Positions 800-64,000 of a DNA stretch of 64,000 bases are shown here, piece by piece (position 1 is the first letter of the stretch; the number at the start of each line of letters is the position of its first letter). The notes under the pieces were generated by a model. It ran no database searches, was not told the DNA's origin, and saw nothing but the letters and a program-made list of their open reading frames with translations. The translations under genes were made by a program, and so were the position numbers. This DNA is from Pantoea sp. CCBC3-3-1 (GTDB lineage: Bacteria > Pseudomonadota > Gammaproteobacteria > Enterobacterales > Enterobacteriaceae), in assembly GCF_007981265.1 (NCBI RefSeq), contig NZ_CP034363.1:124001-188000 (forward strand), given 5' to 3'.

Positions 800-997
800 A
801 TGACAGAACAACCCAACCCGAAACTTCCTGTTGCGCGTGAAGCGCAGGATGATATTCGTGCGCTCGAAAAGGCTTTTTCTTTACAGAACTGGCACTACAT
901 TGATATTGCGCGCCAGGAGAGGCTTGCCGGTATTTTAACCCGTTGGCCGCTGCTGGCGGAATTTGCTACTGCTGTACAGATCAAGAGTCAGCAATGA
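800..997 (+). CDS. bcsR: BcsR, small cellulose biosynthesis protein (YhjR)
   Basis: A 65-residue soluble protein, the usual BcsR size, ending in the conserved LAGILTRWPLLAEF segment. In E. coli BcsR forms a complex with BcsQ that sits under the membrane synthase and is needed for its assembly and activity. It is the first gene of the bcsRQABC operon. Its TGA stop (995-997) overlaps the ATG of bcsQ (994-996) in an ATGA junction, so the two partners are probably translationally coupled. Confidence 0.93.
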   Translation: MTEQPNPKLPVAREAQDDIRALEKAFSLQNWHYIDIARQERLAGILTRWPLLAEFATAVQIKSQQ

Positions 998-1722
998 CGG
1001 TTATTGCACTTCAGGGCGTACGGGGCGGAACAGGTACCAGCTCGTTAACCGCAGCGTTTGCATGGGCGTTAAGCCAGCTGGGTGAAAGCGTGATAGCGGT
1101 GGATTTATCACCTCATAATTTGCTACGAATGCATTTTAATATGCCTTTTGAGCAGCCTCGCGGCTGGTTACGTGCCGCGTTTGACAACGGTCCATGGCAG
1201 CAAAGCGCGCTGCGCTATACGCCCGATTTAGATTTTATCCCGGCGGGTCAGTTAAACGAGTCCGAACGTCTGGCCTTTGCCAGCCAGTCTGCGCGGCATA
1301 GCGAGGCCTGGGCTGAACAGCTTGCCGAACTCAAAGCAAGCTATGCCTGGATCCTGCTGGATTTGCCCGCTGAAGATACACCCTGGACGCGCGCCATGCT
1401 GGCGCTGGCCGATCGGGTTATTAATGTCGTGGTGCCGGATGCGAACTGTCATATCCGACTGCATCAGCAGACTTTTCCTGCGAATACGCTGTTTTTACTG
1501 AATCAATTCTCCTCAGTGAGCAAAGCGCAGCAGGATCTTCATCAGTTATGGTTTAACAGCCTGCACAATTTGATTCCATTGACTATTCATCGTGATGAAG
1601 CCGTAGCCGAAGCGCTGCTAAACAAGCAGCCTTTGGGGGAATATCGTCCGCAGAGTCTGGCGGCTGAAGGGATGGTGACCTTCGCCAACTGGGCGCTGAT
1701 TAACCTGCGAGAGAAAGCGTAA
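994..1722 (+). CDS. bcsQ: BcsQ, MinD/ParA-like ATPase of the cellulose synthase complex
   Basis: A 242-residue SIMIBI-class ATPase beginning MTVIALQGVRGGTGTSSLTA. The deviant Walker A reads GVRGGTGTSS; as in other BcsQ proteins it lacks the signature lysines of MinD/ParA. I chose the ATG at 994 because it overlaps the bcsR stop as ATGA and matches the E. coli N-terminus; the frame is open 17 codons further upstream to 943, but those codons read bcsR sequence out of frame. BcsQ with BcsR forms the cytosolic vestibule of the synthase and helps localise it at the pole. The stop overlaps the bcsA start (TAATG). Confidence 0.93.
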   Translation: MTVIALQGVRGGTGTSSLTAAFAWALSQLGESVIAVDLSPHNLLRMHFNMPFEQPRGWLRAAFDNGPWQQSALRYTPDLDFIPAGQLNESERLAFASQSARHSEAWAEQLAELKASYAWILLDLPAEDTPWTRAMLALADRVINVVVPDANCHIRLHQQTFPANTLFLLNQFSSVSKAQQDLHQLWFNSLHNLIPLTIHRDEAVAEALLNKQPLGEYRPQSLAAEGMVTFANWALINLREKA

Positions 1723-4316: not shown

Positions 4317-4337
4317 CGTAACGTTGATGATGATACG

Positions 4338-9600: not shown

Positions 9601-10123
9601 TGAGCGTTTGATGGCGGGCTATTACTATAAGCTGATTAATGAAGGCAATCGGCGTGCCACTATCGGCCTGAACGGTATGCTTTGGCACTACGAGCGGGAT
9701 CTGAGTGACTATTCGCTTGGCCAGGGCGGTTATTACAGCCCCCAGAGCTATAAGTCACTGTCGGTGCCGTTAACTTACCGCCAGCGCACGGAAAACTGGT
9801 CGTGGGATGTCGGCGGTTCGGTTTCCTGGTCCCATACGAAAACGCGCGGCCAGTCACGTTATCCCCTGAATTTTGGCGCGTTAACCAGCGATAACCCTGC
9901 GGGCAGTGACAGCAGCAGCAGCGGTTTCGGCTATACGCTACAGGCGGCGATCGAACGACGGCTCAGTGCGCACTGGACGCTGGGTTTAGGCGTGGATATT
10001 CAGCAAGCGAAAGATTACACCCCGAGCCACGGGATGCTCTATGTGCGCTATTCGATGGCGGGCTGGGAGGGTGATTTGGATCTGCCACTCCAGCCTTTAA
10101 CGCCATACGCTGACTGGAAATAG
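6647..10123 (+). CDS. bcsC: BcsC, TPR scaffold and outer-membrane cellulose export channel
   Basis: A 1158-residue protein with a signal peptide (MKPLHNLILPALLLPLSSAA, cleavage near ALAA), a long array of TPR-type helical repeats over about residues 30-780, and a C-terminal beta-barrel domain over about residues 810-1158. The periplasmic TPRs bridge the inner-membrane synthase to the barrel that secretes the glucan. The start is GTG at 6647, overlapping the bcsB TAG stop (TAGTG); the signal peptide begins immediately, which supports it. Length matches E. coli BcsC. It is the last structural gene of the operon. Confidence 0.95.
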   Translation: MKPLHNLILPALLLPLSSAALAAPAEVAPVDWLLQQVRVGEATNKTDLVSQSLYRLEKIAPNNPQVLAAQIRLSLRQGQQAKAQEQLNALKKIAPDAAATHQAEASLMLVSDSGRQQLQQARLLATAGHLVEARAAWDTLFHGVFPSNDIALEYWRLVARLPGQEGPALTQLEALDRDAPGSINVKMAIAQMQLSQNNRAAALKQLQAVAADPAGRNQAAELWLSDIKSQPVTPETVAQLKNYLVTFSSDKPQTDGQAELERQEKMLADPAYQQRLRGLALIDKGESSAAIPALRAALQASPNDADLLGAMGQALARANNREAAAGYFQRAIEADAQGTDIDKWRSLQKSNQYWLAIAAGDKALAAGDSKGATRSYQQARELDSSDGYALIGLGDVALAQQNAAAAEMMFRQALRIDPDNTTAIQRLVGIYQQQSPEKAMAFINGLPASQKRALGTTLSSLRSSTLSSEGDKLAAAGRWQQAADRYREAQQGAPDDVWLNYRLAGALRQAGQLQAADQQMAAMARQQPGVVTQVYAQALYLSSSDRAEAALQQLHALPAEKWDSNIKDLNARLETDAAIAKANTLRASGQEDQAVALLNQLPPSSRIALTEADWAMERGDTEQALQRYRDVGAKDPQNNDARLGEIEALIALKALPEAKERLKALPAAVADESVNSGRRVANAEQGVDEPGRAAAIFALLKPKAVKESPSQSSALVFRDAARLEASQGQSAAAQLDYQQAMLASGITTTPPKGYIDYTRLTRNNSFDDWLKRGIRSDAADLARQQDTTLTMEENYGRNKGTGGISDFTAHTTMLEAKTPIAAGTGIFRLDNVDLSAGTFARNSSGNSEENFGTCANDDAVCNRDFRQHQNGTSIGVGYNSEKWSADIGTTPLGFTVTNWVGGFTWNTAMKDIGVSLTASRRPISSSLLAYAGTRDPNTASGKTFGGVIATGGSVGLSYDKGNANGVWADISAHQITGENVKDNSRERLMAGYYYKLINEGNRRATIGLNGMLWHYERDLSDYSLGQGGYYSPQSYKSLSVPLTYRQRTENWSWDVGGSVSWSHTKTRGQSRYPLNFGALTSDNPAGSDSSSSGFGYTLQAAIERRLSAHWTLGLGVDIQQAKDYTPSHGMLYVRYSMAGWEGDLDLPLQPLTPYADWK

Positions 10124-49659: not shown

Positions 49660-50676
49660 TTATTGCGGGCCTTTTGCCTGTAATATTCGCTCCGCGTCAT
49701 CCCTGGTTAATGAATAATTAAAAAAGCGCTGATAAAAATCCTGCGTGGTTTGCACCATGTTCAGCGTTGGAAAAAGTTCAGGATGCAGTTTTTTTGCCGC
49801 CCACTGAATTTGCAGCGCAGCCTCTGTGCCATAACGATCCCAGGGAAACACCCCGGCTGGGTTCTGCCATACCTGATGGGTTTTAACGGCTTTCAGGCTG
49901 CTGAACAGCGTAGCGTAGTCGGAGCTGGCAAGCGTTCCGGCACCGGCGCCAATAATGATAATATCCGGCTGCCAGTACAACACGTTTTCTGGCGACGTTT
50001 CCTTCATATTTCCGTCAACTTCTGCGGCAGCATTCCGGCCACCTGCCAGCTTAATCCAGGTATCGATCAACGTATTGCGGCCGTCAACTTTGAGCGGATG
50101 CAGCGACTCAATATGCAGTACGCGTGGGCGTTGACTGTCACTCAGCGTGGCCGTTTTTGCTGCTATGGCCGCAATTTTTTGGTCAAGGTAAGCATTATAG
50201 TCACTTGCCCGCTGACGAGCCCGATCGGTTCCGACGACTTCAGCGGTGGTCAACAATGAACGTTTCATGGAAGGAAAATCATCAAAGCGCATGACGAGCG
50301 TAGGTAATCCGGCGCGACGGTAGGCGGCTGCGTCGCCATCTTCTGCCGCGACAAAAACCGTATCCACCTTCTGTGCCAGCAGCGCTTCGCTGTTGAAGCT
50401 GCGACCATGGACGCTCAGCGCCTGATTGAGCGAAGGCTGGATCTTAAACATCCAGGGCCGATCGCTGGCATGGTTCACGGTTGCAACAATGCGGTCGCCT
50501 GCGCCAAGCGTCATTAACAAGGAATGATGGGCGTACCAGCCGTCGGCGATACGTTTGGCTTCCTGCGGCACCTTGACCTGATTGCCCGCATCGTCAGTGA
50601 CGACGCGGGCGGAGGCAGTCAGGCTGATACCGAAACTCAATGCTGCCAGTAACGGCAGCATCAGACATGTCTTCAT
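49660..50676 (-). CDS. Periplasmic iron-siderophore-type ABC substrate-binding protein
   Basis: A 338-residue class III (FhuD/BtuF/FepB-like) binding protein. A signal peptide (MKTCLMLPLLAALSFGISLT, cleavage near SARA) leads to two alpha/beta lobes joined by a long helix; typical phrases are VVTDDAGNQVKVPQEAKRIA and PENVLYWQPDIIIIGAGAG. I use the ATG at 50676 because GAGG lies 6 nt upstream; the ATG at 50688 overlaps the receptor stop. It is coupled closely behind the TonB receptor gene. No permease or ATPase gene is nearby, so it must share another ABC importer. Confidence 0.87.
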   Translation of the reverse strand: MKTCLMLPLLAALSFGISLTASARVVTDDAGNQVKVPQEAKRIADGWYAHHSLLMTLGAGDRIVATVNHASDRPWMFKIQPSLNQALSVHGRSFNSEALLAQKVDTVFVAAEDGDAAAYRRAGLPTLVMRFDDFPSMKRSLLTTAEVVGTDRARQRASDYNAYLDQKIAAIAAKTATLSDSQRPRVLHIESLHPLKVDGRNTLIDTWIKLAGGRNAAAEVDGNMKETSPENVLYWQPDIIIIGAGAGTLASSDYATLFSSLKAVKTHQVWQNPAGVFPWDRYGTEAALQIQWAAKKLHPELFPTLNMVQTTQDFYQRFFNYSLTRDDAERILQAKGPQ

Positions 50677-50687
50677 GGTTAACCTCA

Positions 50688-52790
50688 TCAAAAATTCAGC
50701 TGCATAGAGACTTGCACCATGCGAGGTTCGCCCAGCTGTGCGCTGGCATAGCCGGCGCCGCTGTAACCATTCAGGCCGCCAGGCACAATATTGGTCCAGT
50801 AATGGCGATTGGTCAGGTTGGTCATATCCACGCGGAAGGTGGTGTCAGTATTAAACAGCCGGGTCTGATAACTGCTGCCGAGATCAAAAGTAGCATAGCT
50901 GCCTGTCCAGCTGTCGTTGGCGTTATCCGTACTGCGACGGCCAACATAGTGCATACCGCCATGCACGTCTGTCCCACTCATAAACGGCAGATCGTAAGCG
51001 GCAAACAGACTGGCGGTATAGCGGGCCAGGCCAACGATTTGCTTGTCCTGAGTGCTGGCGCTGGCGGTATCGCGCAGACGGGGATCGAGCCAGGTCATGC
51101 CGCCATACAGATGCAAATTAGCCGTGACGTCGCCATCCGCCATCAGCTCCAGCCCGCGGTTGCGCTGGTTGCCGTCGACGGCATAGTCGCCGCTGGCTGT
51201 GGTGTAGGCGAAAGGCCGGTCAATTTGAAATAGCGCAGCGGTCAGCAGGACTTTATCTACCGCCAGCTTGCTGCCCACTTCCACCTGCTTGCTGCGATAA
51301 GGCGACAGAATCGCACCTGCGTTGTTGGCGCCGGTGGGTGCGGTATCACCCTGTTGCAGGCTGTCGGCATAAGTGACATACAGCGTGAGCGGGTCAACGG
51401 GCTTATACATCAGGCTGGCAGAACCGCTAAAGCCCTGGTCGCTGGAGTCACTGGTACGGCTGCCTGTTTTTGCATAATTAGCGGACGTCAGAAAGCTTTC
51501 ACTTCCAGCCAGCAGCAGGCTCCATTGCGGCGAAAAGGTGAGCGTATCGCTGAGCAACAGGGCCTGTTGGGTGGCGCTTGCCGAATGATAGCGATGGGTG
51601 AAATCCGGATAATCCGGCTCGGCATAAGATTGAGGATTGTCGAGCGAAGCGCTGCCCAGCGTCGACGTTGCGCCATTTAACGGATTGTAATTTTTCCAGA
51701 CGAAGCCGCGGATCCCGGTAGAAACCTGATGATGCAGCCAGCCGGTATCGACTTCTCCGTTCAGATTCGCCATATAGCTGTTAATGGTAAAACGGCTGGC
51801 AGTTGCGGAAGAGGTGGTCGTTTTATACTGTCCGTCACGGTCGGTGAAGGTGTTGGTGACCGCGGTCGATTCCCGATCTGCAATCTGGCGTAGTACACCT
51901 ATTTCGCCCTGCCAGTTGCCGTCAAAATCATGTTTCAGATGTAAGCCTGCGGTCAGCGTATGGTTATCATCACCGGCATAGGCCTGACCGAGGTGCGCGG
52001 TTTTTGGATTTGGCGCTGCCGGGAAAGAGAGTCCACTGCCCAACGCAAATTTTCCGGGCAGGCCTTTATCATAAAAATGGTAATAGCTAAAATTGGTTTC
52101 CAGCACGGTTTTATCCGTGAGGGTGATATCCAGCGCCAGGCTTGCCAGCTGACGACGCTTTTTACTGCCGCTGACATAGCCGCTACCTTCATCATCAAGG
52201 AAATTGGCGCGATAACGCAGGCGATCGTTATCATCTAACGGGCCACTGAAGTCCCCGGCAACCAGATGGCTAAGGCCGGTACCTGCGCCAAACGTCAGGC
52301 TGTGTTGAGCAATATCCGTTGGCCGTTTGGCGACAAAGTTAAACAGGCCTGCCGGATTGGCCGGGCCGTACAGCGAGCCGCCCAGGCCATTGAGGACTTC
52401 GATATGGTCGAACTGTTCGGCGGCATAATCGGTGGTGGAAACGACGTTAAGCCCATCGATCATTGAGTTTTGGACAACGCTGCCTTGCATACCCCGCGTC
52501 TGAGGTCGGGCGCCATCACCCTGTACCGAGGGCATATAGCGGTAAATGTCGCTGATGCTTTTAAGCTGTTGACGCTTCATCAGGCTGGGTGAAACCACCT
52601 GTACGGACCAGGGCGTGTTGCGGATTTCCTGCTTGCCCAGATTGCCGAGCGTCGCCTGTTTATCCACCGCGGCTGCCTCGGCATTCGCAGAGGGAGCCTC
52701 CACGGTTAATGTTTTTTCCTGGCCTGCTGAAACTTGCTGTGCCATGACCAGCACTACGCCAGGCAAAAAGGTTTTATATGCCACTGTCAT
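50688..52790 (-). CDS. TonB-dependent siderophore receptor
   Basis: A 700-residue outer-membrane receptor. A signal peptide is followed by a TonB-box-like EKTLTVEAPS (about residues 25-34), a plug domain (NTPWSVQVVSPSLMKRQQLK, about 58-77; ARPQTRGMQGSVVQNSMIDG; IEVLNGLGGSLYGPANPAGL) and a 22-strand barrel ending in VQVSMQLNF with the terminal phenylalanine. This is the FhuE/FoxA-like hydroxamate-receptor type, but the ligand is not certain. It is followed directly by its probable binding protein. I found no Fur box in the upstream 476 bp, which is unusual. Confidence 0.9.
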   Translation of the reverse strand: MTVAYKTFLPGVVLVMAQQVSAGQEKTLTVEAPSANAEAAAVDKQATLGNLGKQEIRNTPWSVQVVSPSLMKRQQLKSISDIYRYMPSVQGDGARPQTRGMQGSVVQNSMIDGLNVVSTTDYAAEQFDHIEVLNGLGGSLYGPANPAGLFNFVAKRPTDIAQHSLTFGAGTGLSHLVAGDFSGPLDDNDRLRYRANFLDDEGSGYVSGSKKRRQLASLALDITLTDKTVLETNFSYYHFYDKGLPGKFALGSGLSFPAAPNPKTAHLGQAYAGDDNHTLTAGLHLKHDFDGNWQGEIGVLRQIADRESTAVTNTFTDRDGQYKTTTSSATASRFTINSYMANLNGEVDTGWLHHQVSTGIRGFVWKNYNPLNGATSTLGSASLDNPQSYAEPDYPDFTHRYHSASATQQALLLSDTLTFSPQWSLLLAGSESFLTSANYAKTGSRTSDSSDQGFSGSASLMYKPVDPLTLYVTYADSLQQGDTAPTGANNAGAILSPYRSKQVEVGSKLAVDKVLLTAALFQIDRPFAYTTASGDYAVDGNQRNRGLELMADGDVTANLHLYGGMTWLDPRLRDTASASTQDKQIVGLARYTASLFAAYDLPFMSGTDVHGGMHYVGRRSTDNANDSWTGSYATFDLGSSYQTRLFNTDTTFRVDMTNLTNRHYWTNIVPGGLNGYSGAGYASAQLGEPRMVQVSMQLNF

Positions 52791-53266
52791 TTTTTGTTAT
52801 GCCTTGCAGAAACGGGGAATGAAAGCGCCACCGCGATGATGATTGCCGTACAGCGCGCGCAAAGGTTAGCACATCGTTATAAATTTTGGTATATAGCGCA
52901 AAACTGAAGTTGATGAATAAATGACTCGCGTTTTTTCGCCTTTCCTCAGGCGAAATGAAATATTTTGAGGCAATTTTAATTTCTGACAAAGCAGGTATAC
53001 TCTTTGTCATAGTTGAAGGGTTTTATACAGGGGGGATGTTACATTATTAACACCAACTTTTTTCTTATTAATTACTTTATGACTCTTCCAATGACTGCCG
53101 GAGAAAGCTTTCCGTAAGCATAAGTCTGTATTGCCAGCGGAGTGATTCAATGGATGGTTTTATTTATGCTTAATCTAATTTTTTTGGTTAATTAAAAAAG
53201 ATTATTGAAATAGGTGTTTCTTAAAAAACTCTACTTCACCAGTCTTTTATGTCAAGGATGACGTGT
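52791..53266. other. 476-bp AT-rich intergenic region
   Basis: It separates the leftward receptor gene and the rightward LuxR-type gene. It carries both promoters. I looked for the 19-bp Fur palindrome and found no acceptable match. The right half is strongly AT-rich. No gene or repeat recognised. Confidence 0.5.
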
Positions 53267-53863
53267 ATGCTTAAAATTCTTATTGTTAGCGATGATGTTT
53301 ATTTTATGAAGGGGCTTGAATCGCTCATTTTTGAAGTCAATGGCGGTTTAATAAAAAAACGCATTAATTTTGTTATGTCGAGAAAATATGTTGCGTCAAA
53401 TGATGCGAATATTATTTTCAGAGGCTGTCTGGCTAGTGTCCGGATGAAGAAAAAAGAATGCCTGTGGCCATCTGAAATGTCCGCCAGCAATAATATGACA
53501 TTGCATATTCCTTTTTCCTGCCATGATGATAATTTACAGGGGATTATGGGTAAAATAAAAAAGCTCCTGCTTATCGCCAGCATGGACCACTCAGGCAGTG
53601 CCGCGCGAGAGAAATATAAGAGTATTGGGCTGAAGGATTTTATGCAGCTTTCAACAACTGAAAGTAAAGTTATGCTGTTAATCGGGGAAGGCCACAATAC
53701 AGAACTTATCTCAAAAATGCTTAATCGTTCGGAAAAAACAATTAACACGCATTACCGTAATGCCAGCAGGAAACTGGGTATGGTCAACCGCATCGAATTC
53801 TATCGCTGCGCCTCTTTCATTGCCAACAGCGGAAGTAAAAACTGGAGTATTATTTGCCTGTAG
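53267..53863 (+). CDS. LuxR/FixJ-type (GerE-domain) transcriptional regulator
   Basis: A 198-residue regulator whose C-terminal 60 residues form a LuxR HTH: LSTTESKVMLLIGEGHNTEL, then ISKMLNRSEKTINTHYRNAS and RKLGMVNRIEF. The N-terminal part resembles a shortened receiver (MLKILIVSDDVYFMKGLESL) without the complete phosphoacceptor pocket, as in RcsA/BglJ/CsgD-like orphans. I use the ATG at 53267 with AAGGA 8 nt upstream. The gene and its upstream are AT-rich relative to the surroundings, suggesting acquired DNA. It lies at the edge of the T6SS cluster and may control it. Confidence 0.8.
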   Translation: MLKILIVSDDVYFMKGLESLIFEVNGGLIKKRINFVMSRKYVASNDANIIFRGCLASVRMKKKECLWPSEMSASNNMTLHIPFSCHDDNLQGIMGKIKKLLLIASMDHSGSAAREKYKSIGLKDFMQLSTTESKVMLLIGEGHNTELISKMLNRSEKTINTHYRNASRKLGMVNRIEFYRCASFIANSGSKNWSIICL

Positions 53864-53922: not shown

Positions 53923-54414
53923 CTACATTTTTTCGTCGGCTGGAAGCGTTTCCGGGTTAAAACTATTGATTACCTGTACATAATGCTTGCGTTGAAACTC
54001 ATTAAATTCGTCCTGCACCGCAAGCGTGAATATAATGAGGTTTACTCTTGCGGGATTGATAACAGGATGATAAGGGAGCGCAACAAAAGATTGCACCTGC
54101 TTAACAAGATGCCCACCCTGGTAGAAACGATTTGCTATTTGTATCACAGGCAATTTGGCCGGTCCCAAGGTGTTTTTTAACATTTCTCCTTCGTTATGGT
54201 AGCCCGGTAGCGTATTTTCCAGGAAATTCATCTGGGCTTTACCAAACTCTTCCAGCGTTTGTCCTGCGGTCATAAACGCGCGGTTAACCAAAATAGAGTA
54301 TTCTTTTTCATCCGGATCGCGGAAACGCAGGATATTGATGCTTTGATCGTAAGCGGGATCGGGAGTCAAAAAACTCCCTTCGTAAATAAGATAGGTTTTT
54401 TTATCGTTGCTCAT
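53923..54414 (-). CDS. Eag-type (DcrB/DUF1795) T6SS effector chaperone
   Basis: A 163-residue soluble protein of the DcrB-like DUF1795 fold, recognised from YLIYEGSFLTP-type N-terminus, RFRDPDEKEYSILVNRAFM (about residues 31-49) and GQTLEEFGKAQMNFLE. Eag chaperones bind and shield transmembrane segments of PAAR-containing T6SS effectors before loading on VgrG. Such genes normally sit next to the effector gene; here it is the last gene of the tssF operon, starting by a 4-nt ATGA overlap with the OmpA-domain gene, and no effector is in view. Confidence 0.72.
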   Translation of the reverse strand: MSNDKKTYLIYEGSFLTPDPAYDQSINILRFRDPDEKEYSILVNRAFMTAGQTLEEFGKAQMNFLENTLPGYHNEGEMLKNTLGPAKLPVIQIANRFYQGGHLVKQVQSFVALPYHPVINPARVNLIIFTLAVQDEFNEFQRKHYVQVINSFNPETLPADEKM

Positions 54415-56135
54415 AGTCCCTTACTCGTTTCGATGAAATGATGGTCAGCCAGCGGAATCAGTTCCACTCGCCTGTTTTGCCGTTGTCCTTCGGCGGTGTC
54501 ATTGCTGGCAACAGGATTGGTGTCGCCTTCACCTTTAATAATAAATCGGCTGGCGGGAAGGTGCGTATGATTTACCAGCCAGTCGCGTACCGCCTCTGCT
54601 CTTTTCTCTGAAATTGTCTGATTTAATCGGTAGCTGCCAGTGTTATCGGAATGGCCCACGATCAAAAAGCGACTTTGTCCCTTCATCACCACCGGCAATA
54701 GTTCGCTTAACGCTTTATCATTTTCTGGCAAGAGCACTGCGCTACCCTGAGTAAATACGGTTACGGTGCCACGAGCCTGATGTGGGGGCACCTGCCCGGC
54801 CGTCATCTCCAGTCTGTACCTGAACTCCCTGTGCTGGCTTAAAAACCAGCCCGCTACGACTATTGCGACAGTTAACAACCAGACCAGGGCCAGGCAACCT
54901 CGTGGCCTCTTTTTTTCTGCCGCCTGGGGGCTGGATACAGGAATGAAGGGAGGTGCAGGCAAACGTGTCAGTGCGGGGAGCGGCGTTGGCAGGGGTACTG
55001 GCACCGCAGGAGAGGGCTGCGCCTGAAAAGCAGGTAACGGAGGCATTGTTAACGTACGTGAAAGGCCCGGATAGAGGTGAAATTTATCGCCTATCCAGTT
55101 TGCCCAGGCACCGTGACGCGTAAACCCATCGCTGTAATCGGCAAGCAATACTATATCCAGCGTTAATGAGGAGGTGGAAAAAAGCGATTCCAGCGAGCGC
55201 ACGATCCCCGACTCCCAAAGCCAGCAGAGCAACATATCTGTCATAACATAGCGATGCAGCGCGTGAACATTTTGATGGCATTGCTGCCCAAGTATGGACG
55301 TTAAACGGCTAAAAGCTTTTTCCGGATCGGCTCCACGGGCCTGCGTCCATCTGCTTTGTTCGGTGTGGCCATCAGCACGATCCTGGCTCAGACGAGCATA
55401 TAAGCCGAGGATACAGGGCAGTTTCTCACCTTTTTGCGCAATGAAGCGCCACCTGGCTATCTGCGACAGGATCAGCGCCTCGTTTTCTTCGCCATCCGGC
55501 AAGATGGGGAAAAAGGTAACGATTTCTGCGGCATTATCACTACTGCGCAACTGCTCCAGACATTTCGCCAGTTCGTCTTTTTCCGCTGCTACTTTCCAGC
55601 AGATCTTCTCCGCTGTTTGTGGATTCGGAAACCATTTTTTCGCCCAGGGGCCAATAATAATGACATTAGTGACGGCCGGCAGCATCTGCTTCGCAGCCGG
55701 TGCGACGGCATAGCGTATGCGTAGCTTTTCTATTTTTATGTCATCGATCAGGCCGTGAGGAATGAGAATAAGTAAGCGATGAGCATAATTGAAAATCTTG
55801 CCCTTGCTGCTGGTGAGCAGGTTTTCAAATTGTTCGCTTAGCGGTGCTGTCGCCCGATCGTAACCGTAAAAATGGCGATCAAGAAGATAGCGCTGCCAGT
55901 CAGTTTCGTGAACGGCAAGGCAGTGACTGATATGCTGGTCAAGATAACAGCAGAGAATTTGACATAATTCGTCAATCTGCGCCTCTTCACCTTCCTCAGC
56001 GAGCAGGGCTTTACTGAACGTTTCAATAAGCTGCACCAGCCTGAGTTGCAACCCCGCGAGGGAAGGGATCACCCCATCAAAAGTGAGTAAAGTGTCGACG
56101 CAAACTATGCGATTAAACAGCGTTTCGCTTTTCAC
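54411..56135 (-). CDS. T6SS composite protein: DotU/TssL-like N-terminus, TM helix, OmpA domain
   Basis: A 574-residue protein. The first about 110 residues resemble the cytosolic DotU/TssL fold (LCCYLDQHISHCLAV, then DWQRYLLDRHFYGYDRATAP). The centre (about residues 120-355) is unassigned. A Pro-rich linker (about 360-400), one hydrophobic helix (CLALVWLLTVAIVVAGWFL, about 415-433) and a periplasmic OmpA peptidoglycan-binding domain follow (VGHSDNTGSYRLNQTISEKR and RQNRRVELIP). The start is most likely GTG at 56135: GGAG lies 8 nt upstream and it overlaps the glycosyltransferase stop as GTGA. An ATG at 56162 is also in frame. The OmpA domain probably anchors the T6SS to the cell wall. Confidence 0.78.
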   Translation of the reverse strand: MKSETLFNRIVCVDTLLTFDGVIPSLAGLQLRLVQLIETFSKALLAEEGEEAQIDELCQILCCYLDQHISHCLAVHETDWQRYLLDRHFYGYDRATAPLSEQFENLLTSSKGKIFNYAHRLLILIPHGLIDDIKIEKLRIRYAVAPAAKQMLPAVTNVIIIGPWAKKWFPNPQTAEKICWKVAAEKDELAKCLEQLRSSDNAAEIVTFFPILPDGEENEALILSQIARWRFIAQKGEKLPCILGLYARLSQDRADGHTEQSRWTQARGADPEKAFSRLTSILGQQCHQNVHALHRYVMTDMLLCWLWESGIVRSLESLFSTSSLTLDIVLLADYSDGFTRHGAWANWIGDKFHLYPGLSRTLTMPPLPAFQAQPSPAVPVPLPTPLPALTRLPAPPFIPVSSPQAAEKKRPRGCLALVWLLTVAIVVAGWFLSQHREFRYRLEMTAGQVPPHQARGTVTVFTQGSAVLLPENDKALSELLPVVMKGQSRFLIVGHSDNTGSYRLNQTISEKRAEAVRDWLVNHTHLPASRFIIKGEGDTNPVASNDTAEGQRQNRRVELIPLADHHFIETSKGL

Positions 56136-57463
56136 CAGCTTCTCTCCACCACGTTGCCCCATCCTGCGCTATGCAGATAAGGACTGATACGGATCACCCA
56201 AGGTTGCAAAGTGAATGAAGTCGTAAAGCTGAGGGTGACACTCATTTCTTCACCACCCTCAAGTGCCAGAGCGCGATCGATTTCCGCCTGAAACAGCGTC
56301 TTTTTCTGCAAAAGATCGTTATTACTGCTGTAAATGCCGACATGCAACCAGGCCAGCTCATCAAAATCGCAGCCCAGTTCCTGTCTCGCAATCGTCACCG
56401 TTTTGTTACTGGTTGCCGTGAGCCTGCTCTGCCAGCCTTCTTTCGGCGGCCCGGGAAACCAGGCTATGCGATCCTTACCCATCACTTCCGGCAGCGCGAT
56501 GCAGTGCTGGAAACTGATACCGGCCGCGTACTCAAATTCGCCGAGGCTTCGCTCATTCCCCAGGCCCCAGTGGCCTGGATCACACGCTTCCTTTTCTATG
56601 CCGAGTAATACCTTCACTCGTTTTTTCGACAGGCGATCTCTTTCCCACCATACGCAGGAGATCGAACCGGCTTTTTCCGCCTCATCGTTATGATCGCTCC
56701 AAATCCGCGCATGGTTTTCCCGACCATAAAAATGCCAGAGCAGAATCTTATGGGGATGCCAGATGTCGTAGCCGTGAGTAAATGCACGCACGGCCATTGC
56801 AATCTCCTCACCCTCAAAGAAAATCAGCGGATCGTTAGGTACCTCACGCAAAAACCGGGCTTCGGCAAAAATAAAGCCGCCCGCCAGATAGCTGCCGCGC
56901 ACGGGTGCGTTACTTTGAAAATCTACCGAGGTGAGTTGCAGGATTTTTTCTGAAGAAAAACCGCGTAATACCAGCCTGCTGACGTATTCTGCTTTCTCGT
57001 CTTCTTTTCCGGGTTGATAGCCCGGTGGATAAGAAGAAATGATCGGCTTTGCGCTGTGCTGCTTCATCTGCTGCAGCAGGGAAATCATTTCAATGTCCCA
57101 GCCATCGATAAAACGGCAGTGAGAATCGATTTGCAGGCAGTAATCTTCCTGCTGGTAAAGCTTTTCACACAGGCTTCTTGCCCAACAGGCACCTTCGCTA
57201 AGAAAATAATCAATGCAGAGTATTTGCAGCCGATTGCCCTGATGCGCAAAGATAAAAAGATCGTGTTCGCCAGATTTTGTCTTTTCACAAAGCGTAAAAC
57301 CTGCCTGCTGAAACAATGAAATATCCCCGTCATCCTGCCAGCAGACCGTGATGTTCAGCGCCGACAGGCCCGATGCTTTTTCCAACATGTTGTGCAGCGT
57401 GGGTAGCAACTCTGCGTCGCGATAGCTGGCAATACTGACGAAGATTCCAGGTTGAGCATTCAT
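56132..57463 (-). CDS. GT60-type (Skp1 GlcNAc-transferase-like) glycosyltransferase in the T6SS operon
   Basis: A 443-residue soluble protein. Residues about 1-320 match the GlcNAc-transferase family PF11397/GT60, known from the Skp1 polypeptide GlcNAc-transferase: IFVSIASYRDAELLPTLHNM (about 7-26), the metal/donor motif LQIDSHCRFIDGWD (about 110-123), ISSYPPGY (about 142-149), and FFEGEEIAMAVRAFTHGYDI (about 217-236) followed by LLWHFYGRE. The C-terminal about 120 residues form a further beta-rich region I cannot assign. There is no signal peptide or membrane helix, so it acts in the cytosol. It lies 3 bp after tssA and overlaps the OmpA-domain gene. A protein target is an inference from the family. 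Confidence 0.82.
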   Translation of the reverse strand: MNAQPGIFVSIASYRDAELLPTLHNMLEKASGLSALNITVCWQDDGDISLFQQAGFTLCEKTKSGEHDLFIFAHQGNRLQILCIDYFLSEGACWARSLCEKLYQQEDYCLQIDSHCRFIDGWDIEMISLLQQMKQHSAKPIISSYPPGYQPGKEDEKAEYVSRLVLRGFSSEKILQLTSVDFQSNAPVRGSYLAGGFIFAEARFLREVPNDPLIFFEGEEIAMAVRAFTHGYDIWHPHKILLWHFYGRENHARIWSDHNDEAEKAGSISCVWWERDRLSKKRVKVLLGIEKEACDPGHWGLGNERSLGEFEYAAGISFQHCIALPEVMGKDRIAWFPGPPKEGWQSRLTATSNKTVTIARQELGCDFDELAWLHVGIYSSNNDLLQKKTLFQAEIDRALALEGGEEMSVTLSFTTSFTLQPWVIRISPYLHSAGWGNVVERSW

Positions 57464-57466
57464 TGC

Positions 57467-58522
57467 TTATTCCTTACCCGGGTCCAGCCTGGCGATAACG
57501 TCTGGTGGTAAGATTTTCAGCAATTCCGGAAAGCTTTTTCCTGTGGCCAACTCGGCGAATTCAAGTAATACACTCACCGGGCTGCTGGGCTCCATGCGCA
57601 TAAACCATTGACGGATTTCCCGCATTTTTACCAGCGCTTCCTGGCGACTGCTGATGCCTTTCTGTATGGAGGATGAGGCTGCGGTGGCCGGTAAATTTTC
57701 GCCGGCGCCTGGTGCTATAAATGACCTGTCCATATCTTCATCCTGTTGTGCAGGGGGAGATGCCGCCTGACCGGGCAAAACCGGCAGAGAAAAAGAGGGA
57801 TCGGGCTTGCGGGTAAATAAGTTAAGGACAGCGCTCAGTCGCGAAAAATCAGGCGCATCATCGCCCAATGATGCCTGTAACAGGTGTTGTAATCCGTTCA
57901 GATGTTGCCCGGCATTTTGCAGAGAGAGAATGGCCTCGTCCTGACGCATTTCCCACTCCTGCCGCAATGCCGCCGCCGTAGCCTCGGGTAGGGCGCCTTC
58001 TTCACGAGGTGAGGCATACGCCTTTTCAAAATCCTTAATCATCAGCTGTAAACCGGCTGCTTTAGGTAACGTTTGGTTTCGCAGATCCTTCAGCAGGCCA
58101 CCGCTATCTTCCAGCTCCAATAAAGCATTAGCGCGCATCAACGGGTCGTATTCGCCATCTTCAACGAGCTGTGGATAGATTTCGGCCGGATAGGCCATAA
58201 GAAGGGAGTGCAGCGCCTGAAGGCCCTCCTCAAGTGCAGCCACGCCAATTTGCCTGATGCGACAACGTATTAAGATGACAACCAGGCGGATGTCTTTACT
58301 TCGTTGCAGCAGCATCAGGCAGTCACGCTCTGTCTCTGTCCAGTTCACCGGTTCGGCAGCTTCAATAAAGCTGCCATATTCCGCGTTCAATCGCGGCTGT
58401 AGCCTTGCCTGGAGCATAAGAAAGCCAGCATCGTATTCCAGATTTTCCCCGCAGAAACAGGGGCCGGGCAGCGGCTGTAGCAGCTGTTGATAGTAGACGT
58501 GAGTCAGCATCCTTACTGTCAT
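57467..58522 (-). CDS. tssA: TssA, T6SS cap/priming protein
   Basis: A 351-residue TssA with an N-terminal ImpA_N domain (PGPCFCGENLEYDAGFL, about residues 19-35, and DPLMRANALLELEDSGGLL, about 125-143) and a C-terminal segment SRQEALVKMREIRQWFMRME followed by PSSPVSVLLEFAELATGKSF, which is the conserved multimerising region. TssA recruits and caps baseplate and sheath during tail assembly. It starts by an ATGA overlap with tssG and is followed by the glycosyltransferase gene. Confidence 0.93.
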   Translation of the reverse strand: MTVRMLTHVYYQQLLQPLPGPCFCGENLEYDAGFLMLQARLQPRLNAEYGSFIEAAEPVNWTETERDCLMLLQRSKDIRLVVILIRCRIRQIGVAALEEGLQALHSLLMAYPAEIYPQLVEDGEYDPLMRANALLELEDSGGLLKDLRNQTLPKAAGLQLMIKDFEKAYASPREEGALPEATAAALRQEWEMRQDEAILSLQNAGQHLNGLQHLLQASLGDDAPDFSRLSAVLNLFTRKPDPSFSLPVLPGQAASPPAQQDEDMDRSFIAPGAGENLPATAASSSIQKGISSRQEALVKMREIRQWFMRMEPSSPVSVLLEFAELATGKSFPELLKILPPDVIARLDPGKE

Positions 58523-59562
58523 AGTGTTGTCCTTAACGGGTGAGGAGGTTTGGCGCCTTGAGCCTGATAGCGTTCTGGTTCAAAACTCATGCCGTACACC
58601 GGTTTTGTGCGTTCTTCTCTTTCCAGCCAGACGGCATAGCCCAGTTGATGATTGCCGCTAAGCGACGCCTGCGGAACCTCGTGAGCGGCCAGTACTAACT
58701 GCGCATCCCAGGCATATTCAAAGCCGATAAAATTGCGAACCCATTCTTTTAATACTGGCAAATCCGATCCCCACGGATTGAAGCGCATATATTGCTCCAG
58801 CGTAAGTGGGCCAAGGATAAGCTTGAATTTATGCTGTCTGTCGCGAACGGTATCGCCGAGGATGGCGCCATCACCCAGCTGTAGAGCGGCGTCTCTCTCG
58901 CCAAGAATCGAACAATCCTGAGCATCAAGAGAAATCCACTGCGTGACATACTCTTCCATCTGCGCATCGACCTGAAAGTAATAGCGAATGGCACCCAGCA
59001 AACCATCGGGGTTACGCGCCTCACGGATGAGATGCGCAGAGGAAGCCAGGCGGGCATGCGCGGGTAAGCATTTGGTGGATAAATCCTGCGGATCCATGCC
59101 GATCAGGCTGGCGATATAAAAGGAGAACCGTTCGTCGCTGGATCTGTCCAGTGATGCCGTATCCTGAGCCACGAACCAGGCACGATAAAAAAGCGACAGC
59201 GCGCGATGATGAAAAATATCCACAAAGTCCGTCAAAGTGGCATCGCGCTGCGCTGAACGGGACCAGGCCAGTTCAGAAAGATGCAGCGGTAAAGCACCCT
59301 GCGGCCCCCAGGAGCCAAGACCAAACAGCCGTAGCTGCAGTCGGCCATCCTGCATGTCCATGTGCGAAATTTCACGGGGAGAAAATGCCATGGAGGCTGC
59401 CTGCCCAAGGCGGAACATCTCCTGCGAAGGCCTTGCCGCCGTACCGGGCAGGGACATCTCAGGGTTTTTGGCGCTAATCGCACGCATAAGACTGATAAAA
59501 CCCGCTTGCCAGGGCCGATCCTCATCAAACCATGCGTCCAGTGCAGGGCGTTGATTTTCCAT
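58519..59562 (-). CDS. tssG: TssG, T6SS baseplate protein (ImpH/VasB)
   Basis: A 347-residue TssG, a wedge component of the T6SS baseplate together with TssF, TssE and TssK. Recognised by RFSFYIASLIGM-type N-terminal half, the conserved FRLGQAASMAFSPREI (about residues 51-66) and the family's C-terminal LGPLTLEQYMRFNPWGSDL. Its start overlaps the tssF stop (TAATG) and its stop overlaps the tssA start, so the three are tightly coupled. Confidence 0.94.
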   Translation of the reverse strand: MENQRPALDAWFDEDRPWQAGFISLMRAISAKNPEMSLPGTAARPSQEMFRLGQAASMAFSPREISHMDMQDGRLQLRLFGLGSWGPQGALPLHLSELAWSRSAQRDATLTDFVDIFHHRALSLFYRAWFVAQDTASLDRSSDERFSFYIASLIGMDPQDLSTKCLPAHARLASSAHLIREARNPDGLLGAIRYYFQVDAQMEEYVTQWISLDAQDCSILGERDAALQLGDGAILGDTVRDRQHKFKLILGPLTLEQYMRFNPWGSDLPVLKEWVRNFIGFEYAWDAQLVLAAHEVPQASLSGNHQLGYAVWLEREERTKPVYGMSFEPERYQAQGAKPPHPLRTTL

Positions 59563-61439
59563 TACAACGCTCCTCGCTTACCGGGACGCCCCGGCCAGCC
59601 GGCCACTTTCCCTCGCTGCATCGAATGCAGTTCTGTTTCGGTAAAAACATTTATGGACGCGTGTCGGGAGAGATAGTTCTCCATGATCAGGCCAAACAGA
59701 TAAGGACTGATGCCGGAAAATCCTTGCTCATCCACCGTCAGCATGCAGCGAATACCTCTGCCGTACACCAACAGACCCTCACCCGGCAAGCGACGCGTAA
59801 CCGGTTCTGTTTTACAACCAATCAGGCTGTCGACTTGCGCATTTGATTGATGATCCGAACCGTTAAGAAACAGGCGCAGCATATTACGTAGGGATTCGCC
59901 GCCAGAATTGTGTTCCATATCAGACAGTGGCAGATAGTTAAAACTGAGCTGGCGGATCAAACGCCACGCCGACTCACCCAGCGCAAAAGGCGCACGTGGC
60001 GCACTGGGCTGGCAGATAAACGATGCGCCAAGAATAGGGACTGCATCTGGCATGGAAAGATCGTAGCCGTCGCTTTTGGCAATGAGTCTGGGTAAATCCC
60101 TGTTGGTCACCATAGCTTCTACCGTCAGATAGCGTATCCGATCGGCATAAGGCGCTTCCTGTTGGTCGACCAGCGAAACGAAAACCTCCGTACCCAGATA
60201 AGGCGTTCTGGTGTCATATTTACGCCTGCCATCCTCCCTGATCCTGGCTTCACGCTGAATGGAAAAATAGCGGCCAAAATTGCCGGAATCACAATGACGG
60301 GTTTGATAAAGCGGATTAAAAACAACTTCTTCATTCTTTTCCGCTTGCTGACCCAATACTTTGTTGACGGAAAATACTTCAAAGTCCAGCGGGCGGCTGC
60401 GATCGGGCACCACGTGAAAAGCGTTAAGCGCCCGGTTAACTTCAATTCTGTCCACGATTTTGGGAAAAAGATTGATCACCGGCGTACAGAACAATAAAAA
60501 TTTTGACGGATCAACATGACCAATCAGCTCCTGCGGGAGCCGGTCCAGCAGAACGATTAATTCCGCTTCGCTGGTATGATTATTTTTCAGGCCAGCAGAT
60601 AACTGCGTCAGTGTAAAAAAGTAAAACCGCTGACGGCAGGTAAAATACTCATGAATGAGATTGTGGCCGTGAAACATGTTCCACGACAGCGGCAACAGCG
60701 TCTGGTCGGGACTCAGGCCTTCGAAAGCGAGAGGATGCTGACTGATAACCACATCCCGGTCTTTTTCATCGCCCGAGCGGATGATCATGGCGACATGGCT
60801 GGTGTGCAAAAGCTCAAAAAGATGGGAAACAATTCTTTCATCGCCATCAATATACAGCGGCAGCCGATCGAGAGACGTTAACTGGGAAAAAACTTTATCG
60901 TCATGCAGCTTAAGCCGGATACGCAGCGCGCCTTTCAGCCTGCTGGACTGAATACGGTGCTTTTCCAGATTGGGCATGTCGGGGGGAATGGATGTCAGGC
61001 GGACTTCGGTGATCTCAATGGGCCAGAGCATTACCTCCTGTCCGTTACGAAACTCGCAACGACTATTTTCTCCTGGCAATATTTTAGTATGAAAAGTACT
61101 GTTTTTAGGAACCAGATAGCCCTGAGTTAAATCACCTTCTTTTGAATTGGGCACCAGTTGTACCACGCCCATTGATGGCGTGGGCGCATTATAATTGGGG
61201 TAAACAATATCCAGCAGGCGTTGAGTAAATTTAGGAAATTCTGCATCCAGTTTTAGTTGCGTACGCGCAGATAAAAAACAAAAAGCTTCTATTAGACGTT
61301 CGACGAAAGGATCGGCTACTTCTACGCCATGCATACCTAAGCGAGAGGCTATTTTAGGGTGTTTTTCGGCAAACTCTCCCGCCATTTCTTTCATGAAGGT
61401 GAGTTCCTGATTGTAATAATCAAGAAATTTATGATCCAT
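59562..61439 (-). CDS. tssF: TssF, T6SS baseplate protein (ImpG/VasA)
   Basis: A 625-residue TssF starting MDHKFLDYYNQELTFMKEMA, followed by FAEKHPKIASRLGM and VERLIEAFCFLSARTQLKLD, the hallmark N-terminus of the family. It forms the main wedge of the baseplate with TssG. It is the first gene of the six-gene minus-strand operon tssF-tssG-tssA-GT60-OmpA-eag, divergent from tssH across 278 bp. Confidence 0.96.
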   Translation of the reverse strand: MDHKFLDYYNQELTFMKEMAGEFAEKHPKIASRLGMHGVEVADPFVERLIEAFCFLSARTQLKLDAEFPKFTQRLLDIVYPNYNAPTPSMGVVQLVPNSKEGDLTQGYLVPKNSTFHTKILPGENSRCEFRNGQEVMLWPIEITEVRLTSIPPDMPNLEKHRIQSSRLKGALRIRLKLHDDKVFSQLTSLDRLPLYIDGDERIVSHLFELLHTSHVAMIIRSGDEKDRDVVISQHPLAFEGLSPDQTLLPLSWNMFHGHNLIHEYFTCRQRFYFFTLTQLSAGLKNNHTSEAELIVLLDRLPQELIGHVDPSKFLLFCTPVINLFPKIVDRIEVNRALNAFHVVPDRSRPLDFEVFSVNKVLGQQAEKNEEVVFNPLYQTRHCDSGNFGRYFSIQREARIREDGRRKYDTRTPYLGTEVFVSLVDQQEAPYADRIRYLTVEAMVTNRDLPRLIAKSDGYDLSMPDAVPILGASFICQPSAPRAPFALGESAWRLIRQLSFNYLPLSDMEHNSGGESLRNMLRLFLNGSDHQSNAQVDSLIGCKTEPVTRRLPGEGLLVYGRGIRCMLTVDEQGFSGISPYLFGLIMENYLSRHASINVFTETELHSMQRGKVAGWPGRPGKRGAL

Positions 61440-61717: not shown

Positions 61718-64000
61718 GTGGCGATTACCAGATCGAATTTATTTGGCAAGCTGGATGAGACTCTGTTCAAAAGTATCGAGAGTGCAACCACGCTTTGTAA
61801 GCTGCGTGGCAACCCTTATGTCGAACTGGTTCACTGGTTAAATCAGCTTTGGGGCCAGGGCGAAAATGACTTCCGCCTGATTGCCCGGCATTTTGAAGTA
61901 GATGCTGAGGTTATGGAAAGCGGATTTACTCAGTCACTGGCTCGTTTGCCTGCGGGTGCCAGTACCTTATCTGATTTCTCTTATCATATTGAGCTGGCCA
62001 TTGAACGCGCATGGATTTATGCCAGTCTGGAATGCTACGACAGCCGTATTCGTAGCGGGCATTTATTGATCGCCATGCTGACGACTATGGAGTTGCGCCG
62101 CGCTTTATTCGCTATTTCTCCCGCTTTTGAACGTATTTCGCTGGAACATTTAACCCATGATTTTGGCTACATCACGCAAAACTCACCGGAAGTTAGCGAA
62201 TCAGCCCAGGACGGTGCCGTCCCGGGCGAAGCCAGCAATGCCCTCAGCGTGGAAAAACGCGAGGGTGGGCTAAATCAATACGCCACCGATCTCACCGCAC
62301 TTGCCCGTGAAGGTAAAATCGATCCGGTCACGGGACGCGATCGTGAAATTAGTACCATGACGGATATTCTGCTGCGCCGCCGTCAAAACAATCCCCTGTT
62401 AACCGGCGAAGCGGGCGTTGGTAAAACGGCAGTGGTTGAAGGACTGGCGCTGGAAATCGTGGCGGGTAATGTGCCGCCGGCACTTGCCAAAGTTCGTTTG
62501 CTTGCGCTGGATGTCGTTGCGCTTTCCGCCGGGGCAAGCATGAAAGGCGAATTCGAGGCGCGACTGAAATCGGTATTAGAAGAGGCTATCGCTTCGCCAC
62601 AGCCGGTGATCCTTTTTATTGATGAAGTCCATACGCTGGTGGGCGCGGGTGGTACTGCCGGAACCGGTGATGCTGCCAACCTGTTAAAACCGGCGCTGGC
62701 GAGAGGCCAGCTGCGGACAATTGGCGCGACTACATGGCGTGAATTCAAACGTCATATCGAGAAAGATCCGGCGCTAACCCGGCGATTTCAGGTGTTGCAG
62801 GTAACGGAGCCGGATGAGGAAACCGCAGCCTGTATGCTGCGTAGCCTGCTGCCGGTTCTCGAAAAACATCATCAGGTCTGGATTACGGATGAGGCGTTAC
62901 AGGCTGCGGTTCGCCTTTCACATCGTTACATTCCAGCCCGTCAGCTGCCGGATAAAGCCATTAGCTTGCTGGATACCGCCTGCGCTCGTGTCGCAGTTGC
63001 GCAACACACGCCGCCTGCGGAGTTACAAATCCTCAAATTTCAGATGGAAACGGCACAAACAGAATTAGCCTTAACGGAAAAGGCGCTGCATCTGGGTAAA
63101 GGTAAGAAAGGCGATGCGGATTCTCTGATTGAGCGAATTGCTCAGCAAACAGCAAAATTTCAGCAGCTCGACGGACGCTGGCAAAGTGAAAAAACGCAGG
63201 TCGCGGCCATTATGGCAGTGCGTGAAGAATTACAGTCGCTGGCTCAACAGGGATCGCCAGAAGAAAAGAGCGTCTTGCAGTTGCAAAATAAGCTGGCCGG
63301 GCTTGAAGCCGATCTGCAAACGCTTCGTGGCGAGCAGCCGCTGGTTCACGCGGAAGTTAATGCTGAGGTGATCGGCAGCATTGTCGCAGACTGGACCGGC
63401 ATTCCTGTGGGACAGATGCTGAAAGATGATATTCGGGCCGTTCTTGAGCTTCCGCAGCGGTTGGCGGAACGGGTAATTGGTCAGGATCATGCGCTCCGTC
63501 AGGTCAGCGAAAGTATTCAGACCGCCCGAGCAGGACTGGCCGATCCGTGTAAACCCATCGGCGTATTTATGCTGGCGGGCCCTTCTGGCGTCGGCAAAAC
63601 CGAAACCGCGTTGGCCATAGCTGAACAGCTTTACGGTGGTGAGCACAATCTCATCACCCTTAATATGAGTGAATATCAGGAGGCGCATACTGTCTCTTCA
63701 CTAAAAGGTTCACCGCCGGGCTACGTCGGTTATGGTGAAGGTGGCGTATTAACCGAAGCCGTGCGCCGTAAGCCTTACAGCGTGGTATTGCTGGACGAGA
63801 TTGAGAAAGCGCATCCGGATGTGCATGAGCTTTTTTTCCAGGTTTTCGATAAGGGGCGCATGGAAGATGGCGAAGGACGACAGATTGATTTTAAAAATAC
63901 CATATTGCTCCTGACCAGCAATGCGGGTAGCGAGCTGATTGCCACGCTCTGTGCTGATGCGGATACTGCACCTGAAGCGGACGGGCTGAAAAAGATGCTT
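61718..64000 (+). CDS. tssH: TssH/ClpV, T6SS sheath-disassembly AAA+ ATPase (partial, 3' end outside window)
   Basis: A GTG start at 61718 with AAGGAA 8 nt upstream opens 761 codons to the window edge. Residues about 1-160 are the ClpV N-domain that binds the sheath (TssB/TssC). D1 has Walker A GEAGVGKT (230-237) and Walker B ILFIDEVHTL (about 300). A middle coiled-coil domain spans about 440-530. D2 has Walker A GPSGVGKT (621-628) and VVLLDEIEKAHPD. ClpV unfolds and recycles the contracted T6SS sheath. About 100-130 residues are missing to the right, where the remaining tss genes are expected. Confidence 0.95.
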   Translation, partial: MAITRSNLFGKLDETLFKSIESATTLCKLRGNPYVELVHWLNQLWGQGENDFRLIARHFEVDAEVMESGFTQSLARLPAGASTLSDFSYHIELAIERAWIYASLECYDSRIRSGHLLIAMLTTMELRRALFAISPAFERISLEHLTHDFGYITQNSPEVSESAQDGAVPGEASNALSVEKREGGLNQYATDLTALAREGKIDPVTGRDREISTMTDILLRRRQNNPLLTGEAGVGKTAVVEGLALEIVAGNVPPALAKVRLLALDVVALSAGASMKGEFEARLKSVLEEAIASPQPVILFIDEVHTLVGAGGTAGTGDAANLLKPALARGQLRTIGATTWREFKRHIEKDPALTRRFQVLQVTEPDEETAACMLRSLLPVLEKHHQVWITDEALQAAVRLSHRYIPARQLPDKAISLLDTACARVAVAQHTPPAELQILKFQMETAQTELALTEKALHLGKGKKGDADSLIERIAQQTAKFQQLDGRWQSEKTQVAAIMAVREELQSLAQQGSPEEKSVLQLQNKLAGLEADLQTLRGEQPLVHAEVNAEVIGSIVADWTGIPVGQMLKDDIRAVLELPQRLAERVIGQDHALRQVSESIQTARAGLADPCKPIGVFMLAGPSGVGKTETALAIAEQLYGGEHNLITLNMSEYQEAHTVSSLKGSPPGYVGYGEGGVLTEAVRRKPYSVVLLDEIEKAHPDVHELFFQVFDKGRMEDGEGRQIDFKNTILLLTSNAGSELIATLCADADTAPEADGLKKML

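Follow-up and report, generated by a model that had tools for sequence, protein, structure and literature searches.

The window analysed here is a stretch of 64,000 nucleotides from the genome of Pantoea sp. CCBC3-3-1 (contig NZ_CP034363.1, positions 124,001 to 188,000), and its subject is a glycosyltransferase gene, hereafter GT, that stands inside an operon of a type VI secretion system (T6SS). Coordinates are those of the window, except where a locus number (L) precedes them. On the minus strand the order is tssF, tssG, tssA, GT, a gene for an anchor protein which we call OmpAx, and a DcrB/EagR-type gene:

59562..61439, minus strand: tssF, 625 amino acids (PF05947, 1.9e-214)
58519..59562, minus strand: tssG, 347 amino acids (PF06996, 2.2e-89)
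57467..58522, minus strand: tssA (ImpA_N), 351 amino acids (PF06812, 2e-27)
57464..57466, minus strand: junction of 3 bp between tssA and GT, where 26 of 29 T6SS loci hold the gene of a MrkD-type adhesin of about 330 amino acids
56132..57463, minus strand: GT60-type (PF11397) glycosyltransferase, 443 amino acids, by Pfam profile and conserved motifs
54411..56162, minus strand: OmpAx, DotU-like and OmpA anchor protein, 583 amino acids as called (PF00691)
53923..54414, minus strand: DcrB/DUF1795 (EagR-type chaperone) gene, 163 amino acids (PF08786, 7.4e-18)

An earlier reading made from the sequence alone (the sequence-only reading) had described a glycosyltransferase gene packed tightly into this operon between tssA and the OmpA-domain gene. 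The packing is as described, with overlaps of 1 bp between tssF and tssG and 4 bp between tssG and tssA, and a gap of 3 bp between tssA and GT. This last junction is the exception among the loci compared, because 26 of the 29 have an adhesin gene of about 1 kb there.

The reading frame of GT begins with ATG and runs intact, without internal stops, for 443 amino acids, and its translation contains every sequence block that had been quoted for it. The assignment to the GT60 type was upheld by a hidden Markov model search, in which residues 7-319 matched the Pfam family PF11397 ('GlcNAc') with E 1.2e-67. This match is far beyond chance, as it scores 229.4 bits where the cut-off is 21, and it covers profile positions 2-351 of 352, nearly the whole family profile. 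We take PF11397 to be equivalent to family GT60 of CAZy. The motifs DSH (residues 113-115), FFEGEE (215-220) and WHFYGR (243-248) are present, the first of them presumably a metal site of the D-x-D/D-x-H type. Across 15 diverse members, drawn from T6SS loci, other bacteria and phages, residues D16, D113, S114, H115, E219, E220 and R226 do not vary; in 50 closer homologues the same holds apart from S114, which is kept in at least 90% of them. Such invariance suggests that the enzyme works even where the adhesin gene is absent. Inspection by eye revealed neither a signal peptide nor a membrane helix, and the Pfam scan, in which PF11397 was the sole match, found no lectin domain, PAAR part or Rhs part. 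A profile of GT compared with the PDB gave no match better than E 0.47. The source genome has one copy of the gene. GT is probably a GT60-type enzyme that glycosylates polypeptides in the cytosol, putatively with UDP-N-acetylglucosamine (UDP-GlcNAc) as donor.

The section of PMC8724618 on Ser/Thr-linked sugars lists GT60 as polypeptide alpha-GlcNAc-transferases, and in the parts of that source covered a related cytosolic enzyme acts on a hydroxyproline of Skp1. A Skp1-like hydroxyproline acceptor is unlikely in the source genome, where no protein of the prolyl-hydroxylase type (PF13640) was found; the family was absent from seven of the eight genomes searched, this one included, in a search that did not extend to PF13661. 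A serine or threonine, or another side chain, would therefore be the likelier site of the sugar. Elsewhere in the family, an 875-residue protein of Kordiimonas sediminis (L082:8045-10672, minus strand) joins 2-oxoglutarate-Fe(II) (2OG-Fe(II)) hydroxylase, GT60 and tubulin-tyrosine-ligase-like domains, and 15 of its 120 listed homologues, itself counted, were judged by eye from the table to be hydroxylase-GT60 fusions. Such fusions support a polypeptide acceptor for the family.

The distribution of the gene was followed in 198 Enterobacteriaceae genomes (GTDB) and 14 control genomes. PF11397 was found in 17 of the 198, the source genome counted, and in none of the controls; in a draw from the genus it was found in 12 of 37 genomes, again counting the source. 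The set compared consists of 29 distinct T6SS loci, made up of those of the 17 family genomes (the window's locus counted), 4 further contig loci and 8 more genus genomes, once L087, L088 and L090 had been dropped as duplicates of L034-L036. GT accompanies the same T6SS in 29 of the 30 Enterobacteriaceae loci examined, the exception being a GT60 gene of 348 codons' worth of protein on a Klebsiella aerogenes plasmid (L002). The gene lies inside the T6SS operon in 28 of the 29; in the remaining one (G050), GT, OmpAx and the EagR-type gene are on a short contig and tssF-G-A with the adhesin gene are at the end of another. TssF occurs in 105 of the 198 genomes, and its 19 closest copies (at least 56% identity, the source counted) include 17 in GT genomes, while the next group has at most 44% identity. 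The two others, G140 and G183 (56-57% identical), have no PF11397 match, and their 20-kb stretches carry tssA-G-F, tagJ, tssH, tssB and tssC but no GT, adhesin, OmpAx or EagR-type gene. The GT and TssF trees have the same main groups and agree broadly, and GT distances follow those of TssF, TssG and TssA with r about 0.80 (28 loci).

Outside the family, the order tssF-G-A, adhesin, GT recurs in replicons of Burkholderia ambifaria, Cupriavidus campinensis and Paraburkholderia sprentiae. These came from PLSDB, where eight records had a GT60 match and three, all Burkholderiaceae, had T6SS core genes beside it. No DNA-level match to GT was obtained in Escherichia coli genomes. PF11397 was present in 4 of 369 genomes of the class and 28 of 398 of the phylum, the source counted in both. 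The three other class-level loci had no T6SS gene by tblastn, and a T6SS set was found in none of 17 stretches from 15 genomes of the phylum draw, several of which end at contig ends; lone matches there were a ClpB-like ATPase (L070, L074), a weak VgrG match at an edge (L068) and an OmpA domain (L072). The link to T6SS is therefore a feature of the Enterobacteriaceae and Burkholderiaceae examined and does not extend to GT60 overall. Within these bounds GT is a lasting, clade-specific accessory of one TagJ-bearing T6SS clade.

The adhesin gene, which we call Fim, encodes about 330 amino acids and lies between tssA and GT in 26 of the 29 T6SS loci and in all three Burkholderiaceae loci. Of the neighbourhood proposed by the sequence-only reading, the constant position beside one T6SS is upheld (29 of 30). 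A direct tssA-GT-OmpA succession is not, since Fim intervenes in 26 of 29 loci and 2 of 29 have no OmpA gene. Three Fim proteins scanned against Pfam indicate a two-domain fimbrial tip adhesin with a MrkD-like receptor domain and a pilin domain: BaFim matched PF22003 (7e-13) and PF00419 (1e-25); of the two from Enterobacteriaceae, that of L034 matched PF00419 (8.2e-15) with PF22003 at 9.2e-5 (below cut-off), and that of L042 matched PF00419 (4.8e-11) with PF22003 at only 0.049 (below cut-off). The N-terminus is signal-peptide-like by eye, and among solved structures the Fim profile matched the Abp2D receptor domain (1.4e-10) as well as pilins. Searched against the 198 genomes, with ten candidates scored in many of them and the source genome scored in full, the profile gave 16 strong matches (at least 307 bits; next best 70), all in GT genomes. 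Sixteen genomes thus have Fim and GT, one has GT only (the source genome), none has Fim only and 181 have neither (Fisher p 1e-22, over genomes that are related and not independent). The T6SS loci without Fim are those of the window, L051 (G068) and L089. In G068, Fim lies away from the T6SS locus beside an usher gene, and its pilin-domain match is weak (E 0.00096). In the tree this Fim falls in the T6SS-Fim clade, together with those T6SS Fims that belong to the same part.

We propose, tentatively and with a little under an even chance of being right, that GT is a clade-specific T6SS accessory that would glycosylate the co-encoded adhesin Fim in the cytosol before export. Its ancestral job, as we infer it, would be the transfer of sugar onto Fim in the cytosol, a step placed ahead of Sec export, so that cells would display a glycosylated adhesin produced alongside their injection apparatus. 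The source genome lacks Fim, and GT must therefore act there on something else, which could be the OmpA anchor, some other protein of the T6SS or a different fimbrial adhesin. If true, this would link contact-dependent killing with adhesin glycosylation, give a bacterial role to GT60, a family known from protist Skp1 oxygen sensing, and explain an operon slot annotated as 'GlcNAc-transferase family protein' and 'fimbrial protein'.

Several observations weigh against glycosylation of Fim. Chief among them is the source genome, in which GT is intact and present without the adhesin: no Fim ortholog was found anywhere in it or in G930, only outgroup adhesins, and a T6SS part or another adhesin is possible as acceptor. 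In the GT tree the sister of L089 is L092, a locus with Fim, and the pattern requires either two losses of Fim or a single loss with its regain in L092. Within the 19-genome TssF clade the association of Fim with GT reaches only p 0.018. Partial distance correlations are 0.47 for GT-Fim, 0.49 for TssA-Fim and 0.50 for TssG-Fim; the value for GT is no higher than the other two, and the measure gives no sign of coevolution specific to GT and Fim. The maps of the 29 loci show no usher or chaperone gene between tssF and the EagR-type gene. The Klebsiella plasmid copy has no T6SS genes in the 31-kb stretch covered, and RTX proteins or adhesins adjoin only a minority of the GT60 genes outside T6SS.

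Those other GT60 genes were surveyed through their neighbours in 22 of 25 loci (three had no GT reading frame); 83 of the 104 neighbours selected were scanned, the 21 left out being hand-picked short or doubtful reading frames. RTX/LapA-type proteins or type I secretion genes adjoin GT60 in at least 3 of the 22 (L058, L062, L073). At L062:3-15212 the gene is flanked by a LapA-domain adhesin, at least 3.1 thousand amino acids long, and by a 1513-residue protein with RTX and Calx-beta matches. On a plasmid of Azospirillum thermophilum (L057:7995-16888) it comes directly before a cluster of DUF4255, tail sheath, tail protein and VgrG genes that resembles an extracellular contractile injection system (eCIS). 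In phages, GT matched PHROG 24687 over residues 6-438, the C-terminal part included (246 bits), and GT60 genes occur in the three phages XacN1, RAS14 and CM1 (320-385 kb); among the matches listed for viral contigs, 592 of 600 pattern stretches encoded relatives. Among the phage neighbours (118 selected, 114 scanned, the four left out lying on GT itself) are further sugar transferases, along with proteins of lectin or virion type; none of the named families recurs often, the commonest, HtrL_YibB, accounting for 9 of 114. The theme of the family may be the sugaring of exported or surface proteins.

An acceptor within the secretion machine itself is possible, though on the unlikely side. TssA, the DotU/OmpA anchor, Hcp, VgrG or a similar part would carry the sugar, and, like threonine phosphorylation in other T6SS, this sugar would control assembly or firing. 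The gene is packed against tssF, tssG and tssA and is kept in all 29 T6SS loci, whereas Fim and OmpAx are each missing from some; it is intact where Fim is absent, and its distances follow those of the same three core proteins. Against this stand the related systems of G140 and G183, which have neither GT nor Fim. OmpAx, the nearest partner, is a poor candidate as sole acceptor: the loci L093 and L094 lack it, and no copy turned up in the stretches from the three Burkholderiaceae. As a site for the sugar, the Pro-rich linker that the window's OmpAx has on its cytosolic side was considered and rejected, not being conserved in the sequences compared. Since lineages without the adhesin keep GT, a machine part suggests itself as a further acceptor, and a combined version, which we judge unlikely, has GT decorating both the T6SS contact adhesin and a part of the injection machine, with sugar transfer controlling contact or firing; GT60 genes beside T6SS, beside an eCIS-like cluster and in phages would then represent a general-purpose means of putting sugars on protein machines that are exported or tail-like.

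It is decidedly unlikely that the substrates of GT are several exported adhesins, or ones other than Fim, with the T6SS operon only setting the timing, in which case the acceptor in the source genome would be another chaperone-usher adhesin. A candidate does exist: L098:8432-9589 of that genome encodes a MrkD-like two-domain adhesin beside reading frames of pilin, chaperone and usher size (the Pfam scan covered the adhesin and the regulator behind it, the others being judged by size). On the Klebsiella plasmid, a fimbrial operon is found about 7 kb away from the GT60 gene, and GT60 genes elsewhere adjoin RTX-type proteins. The L098 adhesin, on the other side, is an outgroup to the T6SS-associated Fim. 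Fimbrial adhesins are common in Enterobacteriaceae genomes, and for this reason the rarity of GT60 (17 of 198) also counts against a general adhesin enzyme.

That GT is itself an effector, injected to modify proteins of a target cell, is very unlikely. Glycosyltransferases injected by other bacteria, Afp18 and YeGT, are described in the parts of the literature covered and provide precedents. An EagR-type chaperone gene relative is present in all 29 T6SS loci, and two of the three Burkholderiaceae loci have, directly after GT and convergent with it on the opposite strand, genes for Rhs, PAAR and vgrG. EagR-type chaperones serve effectors with membrane helices, unlike GT, in which none was seen by eye. 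GT also has no PAAR or Rhs part by Pfam, holds an unvarying place in the tssF-G-A operon rather than beside vgrG in the 29 Enterobacteriaceae loci, and has no constant immunity-like partner gene in their maps.

The view that GT is random cargo or a decaying relic, for which the abundance of GT60 in viral contigs (making pick-up conceivable) and the Klebsiella copy outside any T6SS seen might be cited, can be given almost no weight for this T6SS clade, a point that the sequence-only reading had left to a genomic survey: 29 of 30 loci, an intact frame, invariant motif residues and agreement of the trees all speak against it.

Glycosylation of Fim by GT would have parallels. HMW1C and the GtfA/GtfB enzymes of serine-rich adhesins attach sugars to adhesins in the cytosol, ahead of export. 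The logic proposed here would be like theirs, with the gene beside that of an exported adhesin and sugar transfer in the cytosol; unlike them, GT matches PF11397 alone and is tied to a T6SS and an adhesin of the chaperone-usher type. For Fap1, the parts of PMC5063993 covered describe a biogenesis that couples glycosylation with secretion. PMC5813230 (again in the parts covered) cites a T6SS locus of Citrobacter rodentium in which a chaperone-usher (fimbrial) cluster is embedded. This locus and the T6SS Tag genes resemble the present case as clade-specific extras, the former also in having a fimbrial gene beside T6SS genes; here, however, a single tip-type adhesin is paired with GT, and the operon has no usher or chaperone. 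The CAZy GT60 enzymes, Dictyostelium and Toxoplasma Skp1 GnT1 and protist Golgi enzymes, share with GT the Pfam family PF11397 over nearly the full profile. Also on the side of likeness, the window's GT is without a signal peptide (by eye) and a lectin domain (Pfam); unlike these enzymes, GT is bacterial and T6SS-linked, in a genome where no PF13640 protein was found. The likeness to phage GT60 (PHROG 24687) extends to the C-terminal part, and the genomic setting differs.

To our knowledge, no T6SS with a built-in protein glycosyltransferase is known. Among the open-access papers listed, a set that leaves most subscription papers outside, no title or abstract opening reports such a gene in a T6SS. 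The main text of De Maayer 2011 on Pantoea and Erwinia T6SS (PMC3235180) was free of words that begin with glycos-, fimbr-, OmpA or GlcNAc, its figures lying outside the search, and the parts covered of PMC13129497, PMC10587679, PMC10946231 and PMC5813230 had no such T6SS glycosyltransferase gene. PMC13129497, in those parts, tabulates predicted effectors of Morganella, one glycosyltransferase among them, and the legend of one of its figures names a fimbrial-like protein. The match for PF11397 itself in the open-access text available was a paper on a brown alga.

Of the remaining genes at the locus, OmpAx matched PF00691 (8.3e-19) and, weakly, DotU (7.2e-5, 22.9 bits, below the cut-off of 27), and resembles an anchor of the TssL/OmpA (DotU/OmpA) type, which would be the second one in addition to the canonical tssL. 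As called, its reading frame overlaps that of GT by 31 bp. An in-frame GTG at 56135, the residue where OmpAx starts in several relatives, may be the true start, and would give a 4-bp GTGA overlap with GT. In 15 of the 27 loci having OmpAx it is split, as called, into two reading frames; a DotU and OmpA pair of another T6SS (L099:7924-10293, G950) resembles this two-frame form. In a 764-residue relative (P0005), GT runs into the C-terminal part of OmpAx, apparently via a deletion, either as a fusion or by decay. TssA scored 153.6 against NCBIfam TIGR03363, just below the cut-off of 160.85. Two divergent genes flank the operon:

61718..64000, plus strand: tssH, divergent from tssF and continuing beyond the window
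53249..53863, plus strand: LuxR-family (GerE) regulator (Pfam), divergent, with relatives behind the EagR-type gene in 18 of 29 loci

Beyond tssH the genome (L005) continues with tssB, tssC, hcp, tssJ, tssK, tssL, tssM, vgrG, tagJ (ImpE) and tssE (gp25 family), and the T6SS core set looks complete. The source genome has a second, distant TssF (42% identity). The LuxR-family regulator is weakly like the one behind the fimbrial adhesin gene of the same genome (L098:9647-10297), and regulator and adhesin may therefore both derive from a fimbrial operon. In G154, pilin and PapD-type chaperone genes lie about 1.6 kb behind the EagR-type gene of the T6SS/GT locus (L041:17529-18898). At the end of the window's T6SS, positions 49660-52790 hold a TonB-dependent siderophore receptor and a periplasmic binding protein, and reading frames of similar length also follow in L089 and L092. 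Cellulose synthesis genes of the bcsQ, bcsA, bcsB and bcsC types occupy positions 943-10123.

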